The notes under the pieces were generated by a model. It saw only the letters and a program-made list of their open reading frames with translations. It made no database searches and was not told the DNA's origin. From assembly GCF_010550695.1 (NCBI RefSeq), contig NZ_JAAGOB010000009.1, forward strand, positions 1-64,000: 64,000 bases of DNA, read 5' to 3'. The position numbers and the translations under genes were made by a program. The DNA comes from Phytoactinopolyspora alkaliphila. GTDB lineage: Bacteria > Actinomycetota > Actinomycetes > Jiangellales > Jiangellaceae. This document shows positions 14,795 through 45,274 of the stretch, in pieces; within the stretch, counting starts at the first letter, position 1, and each line of letters begins with the position of its first letter.

Positions 14795-15916
14795 TTAAGC
14801 GTTCGCCGTCGCCAACTGCCCGCAGGCCCCGTCGATGTCACTCCCGCGCGTGTCGCGTACCGTCACCGGAATGCCGTGTGCCTCCAGGGTCGCGACGAAC
14901 GTGCGCTCTACCTCAGGGTCGGACGCTGTCCACTTCGACCCCGGCGTCGGGTTCAATGGGATCGGGTTCACGTGCACCCATCCCTGGCCGCGATCCGTCA
15001 GCAGCCGGCCGAGCAGGTCGGCCCGCCATGCCTGGTCGTTGATGTCACGGATCAGCGCGTACTCGATCGACACCCGGCGCCCGGTCCGGTCGAAGTATCG
15101 CCGGGCGGCATCGAGCGCCTCGGCCACCTTCCACCGCGTGTTGATCGGGACCAGCTCGTCGCGCAGCTCGTCGTCGGGAGCGTGCAGAGACAGCGCCAGG
15201 GTGACCGACAGATCTTCCTCACTCAGCCGGTCGATCGCGCTGACCAGGCCTACGGTGGAGACGGTAACGCCGCGCTGGCCGATGCCCAGGCCCGCCGGTG
15301 CCGGGTCGGTCAGGCGCCGAACCGCCGACACGACGGACTTGTAGTTGGCCATCGGCTCGCCCATGCCCATGAACACCACGTTGGTGATCCGCCCCGGGCC
15401 GCCCGCGATCTCACCCGCGGCCAGCATCCTGGCGCCGGCAACGACCTGCTCGACGATCTCCGCAGTGGACATGTTCCGGGTCAGGCCCTGCTGCCCGGTG
15501 GCGCAGAACGGGCAGTTCATCCCGCAGCCGGCCTGGCTGGACACGCAGATGGTGACCCGGTCACGCTTCCCGGTGTAGCGCATCAGCACGCTCTCCACGA
15601 GCGCGCCGTCATACAGCCGCCACAGCGTCTTGCGCGTGGTTCCGCTGTCGGTCTCCATGTGCCGGACCGAGGCGACGAGAGACGGCAGGACGGCCTGCCC
15701 TAGCGCACCGCGGACCGACGCGGGCAGATCGGTCATCTGCTCGGGATCGGAGATGAATCTGGAGAAATAGTGCCGAGACAACTGATCCGCGCGGAACGCC
15801 GGCTCACCCAGCTCGGTCACCAATGCCCGGCGTCCGTCGACGTCGAGGTCGGCCAAGTGGCGCGGCGGCTTGCCACGACGCACCGGCGTGAGCTGTAGTT
15901 CCCCTGGCTTGGGCAT
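14795..15916 (-). CDS. rlmN: 23S rRNA (adenine2503-C2)-methyltransferase RlmN
   Basis: A 373-residue radical-SAM enzyme that methylates A2503 of 23S rRNA and A37 of some tRNAs. The [4Fe-4S]-binding CxxxCxxC motif is in [11 protein letters not shown]. The SAM motif GMGEPMANY and the C-terminal Cys region ([10 protein letters not shown]) are present. The start MPKPGELQL follows AGAGGAA; a longer frame adds 15 unlikely residues. It is the last gene of the rpsB-tsf-pyrH-frr-cdsA-rlmN line and is separated from cdsA by a repeat array. Confidence 0.93.
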
Positions 15917-15964
15917 GGATTCCTCTGGTCTGGAACGGGTCCGCAGGTGCAATTGTCCCACGTT

Positions 15965-16220
15965 GACGCCTGATCGCCATTCGGCCGTCCGGCCCCTGCT
16001 TTGCCACCTGATCGTCGATATGTCGTCTGATCATCGGCGGCGCCTCATGGGAGATGATCAGGTGACGAAACTGCGCGTCTGGGCGGTCCTTGACCATCTG
16101 ATCCACATCGGTTCACATACTGAGACGGGATCAGGTGACGAAGTCGCGGCGCCAGGGCGGCACACGTCATCTGATCGCGACGAAGGAGCTGATCAGATGA
16201 CACATCGACGATCAGGTGAC
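15965..16220. repeat. Degenerate 73-bp tandem repeat array with alternating 11-bp motifs (array A)
   Basis: Nine copies of an 11-bp motif, GATCAGGTGAC or its reverse complement with one to three changes, are centred at about 15970, 16008, 16027, 16061, 16098, 16134, 16171, 16196 and 16215. The middle four alternate in orientation at 37, 36 and 37 bp, and successive same-orientation copies are exactly 73 bp apart (16056 and 16129). The last copy supplies the final codons and stop of cdsA. The same pattern recurs at 43502-43666. Confidence 0.75.
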
Positions 16221-17081
16221 ATAGGTGAGCACCAGCCACACCAGCGGAGCGGTGGGGAGCAGCGAGTCGAGCCGGTCCATGATCCCGCCGTGGCCGGGCA
16301 ACAGGGAACTCATGTCCTTGATCCCGAGATCGCGCTTGATCATCGACTCGCCGAGGTCACCGGTGGTGGCGCCGATCACGCCGACGACGCCGAGGAGCAC
16401 CCCCGACCACCATGGTGCGTCCATCGCCAGCACCGCCACCGCGATCCCGGCACCGACACCGAGGAGCAGCGAACCGGAGAAGCCCTCCCAGGTCTTCTTC
16501 GGACTCACCGTCCTGGCCATCGGATGCTTGCCGAACAGGACACCGGTGAAGTATCCGCCGGTGTCGGAGGCGACCACCACGGCCAGCAGCGTGAAGACCT
16601 GCCAATGCCCGTCGTCCGCTCGGGCCATCAGCATCGCGAAGCCGGCAAGGAAGGGGATGTACACCACGGAGAACACGCCGGCGGTGACGTCGCGTACGTA
16701 ACCGGCGGAGTGATCACCCAGCCGCCACACCAAGATCGCCGCGACAGTCAGGGCAAGCCCCACCACCAGCGGTGCCGTGCCCGCCACGAACGCACCCACC
16801 AGCATGATCACGGACCCCAGCAGGGCGGGAACCAGAGGCACCGCGATGCCCCGAGTGGCGAACGCCTGCGCCAGTTCCCACACCGCGACGACCATGACCA
16901 CCAGGACAAGAGCCGCGAACGCGGGCGGATACAGGAACAGGGTGCTGACCACGATAGCGCCGAGGCCCACACCCACGGCGGTGGCCGCGCGCAGATCCCG
17001 GCCGGCTCGTCGTGCTCCGTGCGCCCCGGCGTCAGGCGACGGTCGCGACCCCTCCTCGGGGTCGGTCGGCTTGTCGGTCAC
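16212..17081 (-). CDS. cdsA: Phosphatidate cytidylyltransferase
   Basis: A 289-residue membrane enzyme making CDP-diacylglycerol from phosphatidate and CTP, the entry point for phospholipid synthesis. After a charged N-terminal 30 residues there are about eight membrane segments. The C-terminal CDS signature is intact: GDLGESMIKRDLGIKD followed by PGHGGIMDRLDS, with the conserved Asp residues. It lies between frr and rlmN as in other actinobacteria. The final Val-Thr-stop is read from the repeat motif of the adjoining array. Confidence 0.92.
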   Translation of the reverse strand: MTDKPTDPEEGSRPSPDAGAHGARRAGRDLRAATAVGVGLGAIVVSTLFLYPPAFAALVLVVMVVAVWELAQAFATRGIAVPLVPALLGSVIMLVGAFVAGTAPLVVGLALTVAAILVWRLGDHSAGYVRDVTAGVFSVVYIPFLAGFAMLMARADDGHWQVFTLLAVVVASDTGGYFTGVLFGKHPMARTVSPKKTWEGFSGSLLLGVGAGIAVAVLAMDAPWWSGVLLGVVGVIGATTGDLGESMIKRDLGIKDMSSLLPGHGGIMDRLDSLLPTAPLVWLVLTYVT

Positions 17082-42387: not shown

Positions 42388-43485
42388 TCAGCGCACGACG
42401 TGGCCGCGCAGGATGATGCGCGCGGGCTCGAGGAGGGTGGCGGGCTCCACCCGAGGATCAGCCGCATAGACACAGAGGTCGGCTACGACGCCCTCGTCGA
42501 GCCTCCCTGAACCGCCGAGCAGGTATGCCCGCGCCTTCCACGAAGCGGCAGCTACGGCATCCGGCGCCGGGATGCCGGCCGCCGTCAATTCCAAGACCTC
42601 ACGCGCGATCAGCCCGTGCGGCAGGTATCCACCCGCGTCGGTACCGGCGAAGACCGGAACCCCGGCCTCGTAAGCGGAGCGCACCGTTTCATATCGCCGC
42701 TCGTGCAGCGCCCGCATGTGGGCCGCGTACGCCGGGAACTTGGCCGCGCCCTGTTCGGCGAACGATGGAAAGTTCGCGATGTTGACCAGCGTGGGGACCA
42801 TCGACACGCCACGCTCGGCCATCAACGCGATCAAATCGTCGGACAGCCCCGTGCCGTGTTCGATCCCGTCGATACCGGCACCGATGAGGTCAGGCAGCGC
42901 TTCCTCGCCGAAAACGTGAGCCGTGACCCGCGCTCCGAGCTCGTGAGCGCGGGCGATGGCCGCCTCGAGCGCCTCACGTGGCCAGCAGGGGCCGAGATCG
43001 CCCTTCTCCCGGTCGATCCAGTCGCCCACGAGCTTGACCCAGCCGTCACCACGACGAGCTTCCTGCTCGACGTACGCGACGAGTTCCTCGGGTTCGATCT
43101 CCCAGCCGTAGTTGCGCAGATAGCGCCTGGTTCTGGCGATGTGCCGGCCGGCCCGGATGATTCGCGGGAGGTCATCCCGGCCATCCACCCACCGGGTGTC
43201 GGCGGGCGAGCCGGCGTCGCGGATCAGCAGGGTTCCGGCTTCCCGGTCCGCGATCGCCTGCTCCTCGGCGACGTCGTCGGGTACAGCCCCGCCGGAATCC
43301 AGTCCGACGTGGCAGTGCAGGTCGACCAGTCCAGGCAGAATCCAGCCGGAGCCGACCGTCTCTGCATTCATGACCGGCTCGTACGTCACGGCACCGTTGC
43401 GGATCCACAGGTCGCGATGCTCCCCTTCCGGCAGCACCACACCTCGCACGTGCAGCGTCCGGGGCGTCGTCGTACTCGTGGTCAC
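42388..43485 (-). CDS. Amidohydrolase-family protein
   Basis: A 365-residue metal-dependent hydrolase. The HxH motif is in GLVDLHCHVGL, a probable carboxylated Lys in WVKLVGDW, two further His in VTAHVFGEE and GIEHGTGL, and the catalytic Asp in VFAGTDAGG, so the site is complete. The pattern resembles imidazolonepropionase/prolidase-like members acting on amide bonds; the substrate is unknown. The start GTG at 43485 follows GGAGGG. It is separated from ffh by repeat array B. Confidence 0.85.
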   Translation of the reverse strand: MTTSTTTPRTLHVRGVVLPEGEHRDLWIRNGAVTYEPVMNAETVGSGWILPGLVDLHCHVGLDSGGAVPDDVAEEQAIADREAGTLLIRDAGSPADTRWVDGRDDLPRIIRAGRHIARTRRYLRNYGWEIEPEELVAYVEQEARRGDGWVKLVGDWIDREKGDLGPCWPREALEAAIARAHELGARVTAHVFGEEALPDLIGAGIDGIEHGTGLSDDLIALMAERGVSMVPTLVNIANFPSFAEQGAAKFPAYAAHMRALHERRYETVRSAYEAGVPVFAGTDAGGYLPHGLIAREVLELTAAGIPAPDAVAAASWKARAYLLGGSGRLDEGVVADLCVYAADPRVEPATLLEPARIILRGHVVR

Positions 43486-43501: not shown

Positions 43502-43666
43502 GATCAGACGACAAAGACGGCTGCCGGCGAGCCTCATGGTCACCTGATCGTTCTGCGTCCACGGAGTGAGACGCGATCGGATGACAAACAGGCCCGACGA
43601 CGACGTCGATGGTCACCTGATCGTCATACGCCACGAGTCCAGCCGACATTTCGACGATCAGGTGAC
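43502..43666. repeat. Degenerate 73-bp tandem repeat array with alternating 11-bp motifs (array B)
   Basis: Five copies of the GATCAGGTGAC motif are centred at about 43507, 43544, 43580, 43617 and 43661, alternating in orientation at 37, 36, 37 and 44 bp. Same-orientation copies at 43502 and 43575 are exactly 73 bp apart, as in array A. The copies at 43612-43625 and 43653-43666 extend to a perfect 14-bp inverted repeat (GTCACCTGATCGTC) with a 27-nt loop, which would fold in RNA just after the ffh stop. Confidence 0.75.
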
Positions 43667-43669
43667 ACA

Positions 43670-45274
43670 TCAGCGCCGGTTGAGGAAGTCGGCGATGTCG
43701 TCCGGCAGCTCGAAGTCGGTGTTCTGGCCGTCGGCCTTCCCGTCGCCACCGAAGGCCGACGGGAGCTCTCCCGAAACGCCACCCTGGGCGCGCCGCTCTT
43801 CGGCTGCCGCGATCTGCGCCGCCCGCTTGGCCGGATTCCCGGACCGGGCCTTCTTGCCCTTCTTCGACTGCTTGGCCTGGCGGCCCTTGCTCTTCTTGCT
43901 CCCCGGCATGCCGGGCAGGCCGGGCATCCCCGGCATGCCGCCCATGCCTGGAAGGCCGCCCATCTTGCCCTGAGCCGCCTGGCTCATCATGTCCCGGGCC
44001 ATGAAGAACCGCTCGACCAGCTGGCTCACCTCGCTGACCTGCGTACCGGACCCCTTCGCGATCCGGGCGCGGCGCGAGCCGTTGATGATCTTGGGATTCT
44101 CCCGCTCAACGGGCGTCATCGAGTAGATGATCGCCTGAACCCGGTCCAGTTCCTTGTCGTCGAAGCTGTCGAGCGCCTCGCGCATCTGCCCGGCGCCGGG
44201 GAGCATGCCGATCAGGCTCTTCAGCGAGCCCATCTTCTTGACGGCCTGCATCTGGTCGAGGAAGTCGTCGAAGGTGAAGCCCTTACCGCCCTTGTCGGAC
44301 AGTTTGCGGGCGATCTTCTCCGCCTCATCGGCGTCGAACGCTTTCTCCGCCTGCTCGATCAGGGTAAGCATGTCACCGAGGTCGAGGATGCGCGACGCCA
44401 TCCGCTCCGGATGGAAGACATCGAAGTCGGTGAGCTTTTCCCCCGCCGATGCGAACATCACCGGACGGCCGGTCACCGAGGCGACCGACAGCGCAGCACC
44501 GCCGCGGGCGTCGCCATCGAGCTTGGTCAGCACGACGCCGTCGAATCCCACACCTTCGAGGAAGGCATTGGCGGTGGTGACCGCGTCCTGACCGATCATC
44601 GCGTCGACGACGAAGAGGGTCTCGTCGGGCTTGACCGCGTCCCGGATGTCCGCTGCCTGCTGCATCATCTCCGCGTCGACGCCGAGCCGGCCGGCGGTGT
44701 CGACCACGACCACGTCATACAGCTTGGAGCGCGCGTGGTCGATGCTGTCCCGGGCCACAGCGATCGGGTCGCCGACGCCGTTGCCGGGCTCCGGCGCGAA
44801 CACGGCCACGCCTGCTCGCTCACCCACTACTTGCAGCTGGTTCACCGCATTGGGGCGCTGAAGGTCCGCGGCGACGAGGAGCGGCTGCTTGCCCTGCTCC
44901 CGCAACCACAGCGCGAGCTTCCCGGCCAGCGTCGTCTTACCCGCACCCTGGAGGCCGGCGAGCATGATCACCGACGGCGGCTGCTTGGCAAAGCGGATAC
45001 GGCGCGTTTCGCCCCCGAGGATCTGGACGAGCTCCTCGTTGACGATCTTGATGACCTGCTGCGCCGGATTCAGCGCCTGGGAGACCTCGGCGCCCCTGGC
45101 GCGTTCCTTGACGGCGGCGATGAATTCCTTCACCACCGGCAGGGCGACGTCGGCCTCTAGCAGGGCGATACGGATCTCTCGCGCGGTCGCGTCGATATCC
45201 GCCTCGGACAGGCGGCCTTTTCCACGGAGCGTCTTGAACGTCGCTGTCAGGCGATCAGAAAGAGTGGCGAACAC
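43670..45274 (-). CDS. ffh: Signal recognition particle protein Ffh
   Basis: A 534-residue SRP54 GTPase that binds signal sequences and SRP RNA. It has the N-domain, then the G-domain with GLQGAGKTTLAGKL (about 108-120), VVDTAGRLGVD and TKLDGDARGG, and the Met-rich M-domain (KGFTFDDFLDQMQAVKKMG). The C-terminus has a Gly/Met/Pro-rich stretch (GGMPGMPGLPGMPG) and a Lys-rich tail, longer than in E. coli. It works with FtsY, encoded upstream on the same strand. Confidence 0.96.
   Translation of the reverse strand: MFATLSDRLTATFKTLRGKGRLSEADIDATAREIRIALLEADVALPVVKEFIAAVKERARGAEVSQALNPAQQVIKIVNEELVQILGGETRRIRFAKQPPSVIMLAGLQGAGKTTLAGKLALWLREQGKQPLLVAADLQRPNAVNQLQVVGERAGVAVFAPEPGNGVGDPIAVARDSIDHARSKLYDVVVVDTAGRLGVDAEMMQQAADIRDAVKPDETLFVVDAMIGQDAVTTANAFLEGVGFDGVVLTKLDGDARGGAALSVASVTGRPVMFASAGEKLTDFDVFHPERMASRILDLGDMLTLIEQAEKAFDADEAEKIARKLSDKGGKGFTFDDFLDQMQAVKKMGSLKSLIGMLPGAGQMREALDSFDDKELDRVQAIIYSMTPVERENPKIINGSRRARIAKGSGTQVSEVSQLVERFFMARDMMSQAAQGKMGGLPGMGGMPGMPGLPGMPGSKKSKGRQAKQSKKGKKARSGNPAKRAAQIAAAEERRAQGGVSGELPSAFGGDGKADGQNTDFELPDDIADFLNRR

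Follow-up and report, generated by a model that had tools for sequence, protein, structure and literature searches.

At the 3′ end of the gene read as cdsA in Phytoactinopolyspora alkaliphila, a run of 11-bp motifs in changing orientation reaches into the stop codon of the gene. What kind of element is this, and how did it come to lie there? A sequence-only reading of the window (i.e. the whole stretch of 64,000 nucleotides that was analysed) had described it as a degenerate tandem repeat family with a 73-bp unit that could fold into a chain of stem-loops in RNA.

The motif array and its copies in the genome

A motif scan of the window finds eight 11-bp motifs with at most two mismatches between 15965 and 16220, and a ninth at 16093–16103 with three mismatches completes the nine in ~255 bp that had been counted (Table 1). 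The central four alternate in orientation (16056 and 16129 on the forward strand, 16093 and 16166 on the reverse strand) at the reported spacings of 37, 36 and 37 bp. The cdsA stop codon is indeed provided by the last copy, i.e. the terminal motif at 16210–16220, and the same geometry recurs after ffh at 43502–43666. The window as a whole contains 53 motifs (at most two mismatches) versus 24.3 ± 5.4 after shuffling, and 53 was reached in none of 100 shuffles. The whole genome contains 131 exact motifs and 421 with at most one mismatch, versus 0 and 26, respectively, for a reversed control. The sequence-only reading was to be given up if motif counts and phasing were no higher than in shuffled sequence, or if relatives lacked the array at every locus; we find both counts and spacings far above chance and the array present in relatives. 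A chance or compositional artefact, in favour of which nothing was found, is refuted by the 131 exact motifs against none in the control and by the recurring spacings.

Table 1. Array copies and neighbouring genes in the window (positions counted from its first letter)
Feature	Position	Strand	Remarks
Element copy 1	15999–16224	+	Short second end 15999–16033; six-motif arm (~165 bp) 16056–16220
Motif 1 of copy 1 arm	16056–16066	+	Exact GATCAGGTGAC
Motif 2 of copy 1 arm	16093–16103	-	Degenerate, 3 mismatches; in register at +37
Motif 3 of copy 1 arm	16129–16139	+	Exact
Motif 4 of copy 1 arm	16166–16176	-	1 mismatch
Motif 5 of copy 1 arm	16191–16201	+	1 mismatch
Motif 6 (terminal) of copy 1 arm	16210–16220	+	Exact; cdsA stop inside
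Outer motif, short second end of copy 1	16003–16013	-	1 mismatch
Inner motif, short second end	16022–16032	-	2 mismatches; 19 bp from outer motif
Isolated motif, possible relic	15965–15975	-	2 mismatches
Element copy 2 (arm)	43502–43666	+	Between ffh and amidohydrolase-like gene
cdsA	16212–17081	-	Translation; name from the sequence-only reading; ends at 16212 in terminal motif
rlmN	14795–15961	-	Translation, putative start; name from the sequence-only reading; far side of copy 1
ffh	43670–45274	-	Name from the sequence-only reading; ends 3 bp from copy 2 terminal motif
Amidohydrolase-like gene	42388–43485	-	Translation; name from reading of the sequence; far side of copy 2

The motif array is therefore real, but it is one copy of an oriented unit of ~165 bp. 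In 54 regions (52 clusters, taken from 100 listed of the 131 exact motif places, and both window copies) the motifs recur in the order + 37 - 36 + 37 - 25 + 19 + or its mirror image. Spacings of 37, 36, 25 and 19 bp predominate across these regions, and individual motifs are often degenerate or missing. An open-ended tandem repeat was rejected because the motifs recur as one oriented six-motif unit and Tandem Repeats Finder has no entry at the array. The 73 bp of the sequence-only reading survives as an internal spacing and is abandoned as a tandem unit, since the unit is ~165 bp long and dispersed.

Each unit (hereafter arm) has a short CAA-like tail after the terminal motif, followed by unrelated sequence, and its other end starts with GATCAGATGAC. 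In some copies, including the one at cdsA, a short second end in inverted orientation is also present, with two motifs at a distance of 19 bp; in copy 1 the resulting 35-nt inverted ends (15999–16033 and 16190–16224) have a complementarity of 89%. We aligned 43 arms of the window's genome (39 from 37 clusters, two in the window and two at the gene-bearing locus L167 described below), most of which lack a complete second end. Their mean identity is 69%, with the 11-bp motifs kept and the spacers drifting; these arms are selected for intact right ends, as 15 of the 52 clusters contain no arm that passes the filter for two terminal motifs.

The arms are dispersed over the genome. In the window's genome (G000), a sequence-only model (R1) lists 59 matches at E ≤ 1.5e-23, all in distinct places. 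With 150 candidates scored per genome, it finds 144 matches at E ≤ 0.01 in this genome, 151 in Phytoactinopolyspora limicola HAJB-30 (G003), nine in the congener G004 and none in the congeners G001 and G002; the weaker matches may include relics and hits on the opposite strand. When genes around the 43 arms are called by a simple codon-usage method, 41 of the arms overlap coding sequence by 60 bp or less. Convergent genes surround 27 arms, same-direction genes 14 and divergent genes one, with one arm unassigned. Placement is also oriented: a gene ends towards the terminal double-motif end within -9 to +30 bp in 31 of the 43 arms, while a stop codon faces the opposite arm end at this distance in five. 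Two-ended elements of P. limicola are similarly placed, nine of 11 lying between convergent genes.

Evidence for insertion and duplication

Both window copies are insertions relative to congeners. The cdsA–rlmN spacer is short and element-free in three of the four congeners (G001, G002 and G004), and in P. limicola a different element of the same family lies immediately 3′ of cdsA. At the ffh site, the element is absent in all three congeners examined (G002, G003 and G004; G001, with no match reaching the threshold, was left out), where ~10 bp or less separate the ffh stop from the next start, versus the ~170-bp element in the window's genome. A two-ended element has also recently been duplicated in P. 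limicola: one copy pair, whose flanks are unrelated, is 97.5% identical over 611 bp, and two copies of a 513-bp segment beginning at the end of an arm share 97.9% identity.

Target-site duplications were not detected, either among 11 P. limicola elements (direct flank match 4.1 for own versus 4.5 for mismatched flanks) or among the 43 arms of the window's genome (4.2 versus 4.2). Insertion into terminator hairpins was considered and rejected: complementary flanks exceed the mismatched maximum in just two of the 11 P. limicola elements (17 and 15 complementary bases; nine or fewer in the remaining nine elements), which is not enough. Two P. limicola elements (L154, ~1380–1450, and L230, behind cdsA) contain or adjoin another hairpin repeat, GCTACCGCCAGATGGCGTT ... 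TTAACGCCATCTGGCGGTAGC, in slightly different versions.

A gene-bearing element and its protein

In P. limicola, the motifs form the inverted ends of elements of ~0.3–1.5 kb. One of these (L162/L166) has 177-bp inverted ends with 95% complementarity, and the L162 sequence contains one plausible gene between the ends, coding for 310 amino acids. A protein 64% identical to it is encoded in the window's genome (L167), flanked by the window-type array.

Bioinformatic analysis predicts that proteins of the L162 type (hereafter clade A) combine an AbiEi-like, winged-helix DNA-binding region with a DUF559/Vsr-like PD-(D/E)XK nuclease. PADLOC AbiEi models match all eight family proteins scanned (best 8e-28; L167 3e-11), and three of the eight pass the Pfam AbiEi_4 cut-off. 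Pfam DUF559 is listed for seven of the eight and is above its cut-off in one, and the L162 protein has no Pfam match. A profile of 42 aligned members (fragments and ambiguous proteins were left out) matches the DUF559-like endonuclease structure 3hrl (E 0.0016) and AbiEi/AbiGI structures (E 0.012–0.015). Four residues (S212, E215, D246 and E257) are invariant in all 42 proteins, and D259 is present in 36; the acidic residues among them fit a PD-(D/E)XK-type site and are putatively catalytic. By contrast, neither an HUH nor a catalytic tyrosine domain (IS200/IS605-type) was matched in nine proteins by Pfam or NCBIfam at E ≤ 1, and a search of the gene-bearing copy for a known transposase domain found none. 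As for an AbiEii toxin, the L162 element, which was the one inspected, contains no plausible second ORF.

Of the 296 genomes sampled in the class, 105 contain relatives of the family protein at locus L184 (E ≤ 1e-15), in 48 of 114 genera. A plasmid or phage origin was rejected on the basis of near-absence from plasmid, phage and viral-contig searches: the L162 protein has no match in 72,556 plasmid records and one (31% identity) in 50,697 phage records, the array sequence was not found in plasmids, and two queries that reach close relatives only found nothing in viral contigs. The phage match (MT837139.1, 3700–4530) is in a 7.6-kb record from human faeces.

Linkage between the gene and its repeats

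With the L162 protein as query (E ≤ 1e-60), the 22 genomes searched in the family yield 15 matches. The array is present at all seven with 58–100% identity to the query and at none of the eight with 44–52% (Fisher 1.6e-4). The array-bearing loci (L166, L167 and L271–L275) belong to three genera and have a similar spacing of the GATCAGGTGAC array, so that motifs and gene are linked across genera; the array-free loci are L168–L173, L276 and L277. In the genus g3 (probably Jiangella), four genes (L271, L272, L274 and L275) have, within the stretch read, an array only downstream, starting from the stop codon or at most two bases away. L273 has an array on both sides.

This linkage extends to the wider family. 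A flanking inverted-repeat score of at least 15 is reached by 36 of 55 family loci versus six of 350 ordinary ORFs in equal windows, and by none of 60 mismatched flank pairs; by this score the other 19 homologue loci have no flanking inverted repeat. High scores are found at 19 of the 30 loci of the genus and at 17 of 25 others (i.e. 12 of 13 from the same family and five of 12 from other families). Wider windows gave 21 of 30 in the genus, and the control's windows 19 of 30. The ORF control comes mostly from other genera, with 25 of the 350 from the window, P. limicola and J. anatolica and none of the six high scorers among these. L199 was dropped as a duplicate of L188, and the duplicates L196, L197, L211 and L212 stayed outside the mismatched-flank test. 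Protein and palindrome change in parallel: over 36 of the 55 loci, the more alike the proteins, the more alike their palindromes (Mantel r 0.417, 0 of 2000 permutations), a correlation that includes host common descent.

Gene and array do not coincide in every genome. In G127 (g3), 400 kb contain 24 exact motifs arranged in the usual way, and the L162 protein finds no counterpart in this genome at E ≤ 1e-60. G063 and G177 contain the gene, and their 400-kb samples have two and zero exact motifs, respectively. This mismatch could be explained by loss of the gene once the arrays had multiplied, by a gene too diverged for the threshold or by another mover. We rejected the simple rule that arrays are abundant only together with a clade A gene: it fits G000–G003, and G004 has nine matches and no clade A gene, but it fails in the sampled g3 genomes. 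The many G127 arrays, which have the usual geometry although the genome lacks a close clade A gene, are at loci L298–L317.

In the window's genome, an inverted arm pair (L055, 1198–2301) encloses an unrelated-looking gene, and neighbouring arms can thus mimic a composite element. A decayed nuclease gene between these arms was looked for and rejected, as there was no match and the intervening sequence resembles another gene. An array lies at the 3′ end of the same gene in g3, g4 and the window's genome (downstream in L271–L274 and at ~2131–2340 in L055); by its sequence, this gene may encode a succinate dehydrogenase iron–sulphur subunit. The nuclease gene adjoins the array at this site in g3 and g4 and is absent there in the window's genome.

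Palindromes of other enzyme lineages

Many other paralogues are flanked by palindromes of their own. The clade C palindrome half, ATGATCATGGG, occurs in 63–248 copies in each of the five genus genomes, with a control of 0. Across the 296 genomes of the class, at least 22 copies are present in 19 of the 22 genomes of the family, while only G183 (40) and G232 (32) exceed 12 among the 274 genomes outside it. Both belong to family f17 and have ATGATCATGGG copies without the family protein at E ≤ 1e-15; possibly these copies represent another enzyme lineage.

Clade C palindromes are also found at gene ends. Among 36 ATGATCATGGG regions of the window's genome (a few places, including those beside nuclease genes, are left out), a gene stops exactly at palindrome base 7 (CCCATGA) in 14, corresponding to 16 of 46 facing gene ends. 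The palindrome offers a CCCATGA stop in one frame, so part of these base-7 stops follows from insertion near gene ends. In 22 full clade C palindromes, two-sided changes amount to 46 cells versus 24.2 in shuffles (0 of 500 reached 46), a comparison that includes the relatedness of the copies. Minimal 14-bp clade C palindromes (CCCATGATCATGGG) occur at gene ends in L234, L241, L249 and L256 and are perhaps loop-deleted relics.

Dispersal varies elsewhere. In G028, from another family, the palindrome of the gene is dispersed (26 copies versus 0 in the control, at most three mismatches), and in G211 the palindrome tested is not enriched (148 versus 389 in the control). The clade B palindromes at L169 and L170 (CTACCG...CGGTAG) have GTAG at their ends, but within the paired stem.

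RNA structure of the arms

The stem-loop chain that had been proposed fares differently for different motif pairs. For pairs 2:3 and 4:5, the latter being the example given in the sequence-only reading, there are 38 two-sided changes versus 27.9 in shuffled alignments, with 38 reached in four of 500 shuffles, and one slid control beats the real pairing in covariation score. Two-sided changes for pairs 1:2 and 3:4 are not above shuffles. RNAalifold run on the arms yields 0 two-sided changes in 15 pairs, and scanning all column pairs of the arms for covariation gives values no higher than in shuffles. Support for RNA stems in the arms is thus weak; the arms may form a hairpin in single-stranded DNA or RNA.

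Origin of the array

We consider it fairly probable that the array at cdsA is a non-autonomous arm of a REP-like mobile element, whose AbiEi–DUF559/Vsr fusion protein would bind the motifs, nick DNA and move arms to gene ends. In S. agalactiae, AbiEi binds inverted 11-bp sequences across a 27-bp spacer (PMC3985639), an arrangement that resembles arm motifs 25–26 bp apart and therefore suggests that the AbiEi part may recognise motif pairs, i.e. that it would bind the 11-bp motifs as inverted pairs. Vsr is a mismatch-repair nuclease that nicks at T:G mismatches in methylated motifs (PMC12907096), and the related C-terminal part may therefore nick at or near the arms, either at the element ends or at extruded hairpins. 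Arms would then be copied or moved to new sites just 3′ of stop codons, often between convergent genes, which may be the sites where they harm least. Motif binding, DNA cutting and element movement by the clade A protein are what we infer.

Other explanations account for parts of these observations. The protein could be a DNA-binding regulator or chromosome organiser that is autoregulated through its flanking repeats, with the arrays as further binding sites that spread by other means. AbiEi does autoregulate through inverted repeats of its own promoter with a similar motif geometry (PMC3985639), and conserved 11-bp motifs between drifting spacers fit binding sites. However, arrays lie behind stop codons and between divergent genes in one of 43 cases, comparison with congeners shows insertions at both window sites, the acidic residues of the nuclease do not vary and four g3 clade A genes have an array at the 3′ end only; we regard this role as quite unlikely. 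It is unlikely, too, that some other enzyme moves the repeats and that the nuclease gene is carried along as a passenger, or codes for a repair enzyme or one that processes palindromes, located next to its own substrate. The many arrays in G127 without a close gene would agree with this, as would the mismatch-repair function of Vsr-type nucleases (PMC12907096), but palindrome and protein change together, the linkage is seven of seven against none of eight, and the gene-bearing L162 element holds one plausible ORF.

The suggestion of the sequence-only reading that the array is a 3′-UTR RNA element of independent origin (e.g. a terminator or a processing or stability signal) draws on the position of arms after stop codons, on the weak excess of two-sided changes in pairs 2:3 and 4:5 and on the retained pairing of clade C palindromes (46 versus 24.2 cells). 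Against it stand the lack of excess for pairs 1:2 and 3:4, the absence of any Rfam match in the window at gathering thresholds, the orthologous genes without the element and the linkage to a nuclease gene, and we judge it very improbable.

The preferred reading, a REP-like mobile element, might be generalized to a new class of transposable elements in Actinomycetes. Their sole enzyme would be an AbiEi–DUF559/Vsr nuclease, and each lineage would recognise its own palindrome or array and mobilise it to gene ends, leaving repeats of 58–165 bp behind genes throughout the genome. We put this forward tentatively, as a possibility that we rate slightly short of evenly balanced. Repeats of the REP type are widespread in bacterial chromosomes, and RAYT is the enzyme with which the papers cited below associate them; in the present case, repeats of REP-like logic are associated with a nuclease family unrelated to RAYT. 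If the nuclease moves the repeats, this would be a new route by which small DNA elements spread. Since protein and repeat change in parallel, a recognition code can be tested directly, and the location at stop codons would imply that the ends of some genes derive from the element.

Comparison with known systems

The sequence-only reading knew of no element with this layout, and we likewise found no description of one, nor any link between AbiEi or DUF559 proteins and dispersed palindromes, in the open-licence PMC literature. Several known systems share part of its features. In AbiE type IV toxin–antitoxin systems, these are the N-terminal AbiEi-like region, the 11-bp inverted half-sites and a similar spacer; here, in contrast, this region is fused to a nuclease-like region, there is no plausible AbiEii in the L162 element and the repeats are dispersed over the genome. 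By profile, the C-terminal region belongs with the Vsr/DUF559 nucleases, but its gene is tied to its own repeats. A related nuclease domain, MTES_1575, has been described as a Vsr-family domain in giant defence proteins (PMC3710099), in a description that does not mention repeats in the parts on which we draw. Miniature inverted-repeat elements (MITEs) of DDE-type insertion sequences have short non-autonomous copies with terminal inverted repeats, as found in P. limicola, whereas target-site duplications were not detected here and the gene-bearing copy has no known transposase domain.

The closest parallel is with REP, BIME and REPIN repeats and their RAYT genes (i.e. 'REPtrons' and 'TIRtrons'). 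In REP/RAYT systems, a single gene is flanked by inverted palindromic repeats, copies of which are dispersed and lie mostly behind genes (PMC2817692, PMC3733652); orientation alternates in BIMEs, and repeat and protein trees agree (PMC2817692, PMC3733652, PMC3116915). The inverted repeats around one gene and the dispersed copies have counterparts here at part of the loci and in part of the genomes, and the alternating orientation is shared. Flanking repeats of the REPtron kind are seen at the 36 of 55 homologue loci that score at least 15, while the four g3 clade A genes have a downstream array only. High copy numbers hold for clade A in G000 and G003, for clade C in all five genus genomes and for the palindrome of G028, but not for that of G211. 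The tree agreement is matched here by a matrix correlation (Mantel) rather than by trees. In the known systems, too, the presence of the tyrosine transposase and the abundance of the repeats are poorly correlated (PMC3733652). The enzymes differ: the present one has AbiEi-like and DUF559/Vsr-like regions in place of an HUH/Y1 match. The repeats differ as well, as those of clade A are ~165-bp six-motif arms, whereas REPs are 20–40-bp palindromes with an unpaired GTAG head, a tag that none of the clade A and clade C ends read contains and that two clade B palindromes have only inside the stem. Because the RAYT enzyme, the GTAG tag (in clades A and C) and a target duplication are missing, we do not file the element as a member of either REP/RAYT or DDE-type MITEs; it works like REP/RAYT with an unrelated enzyme.
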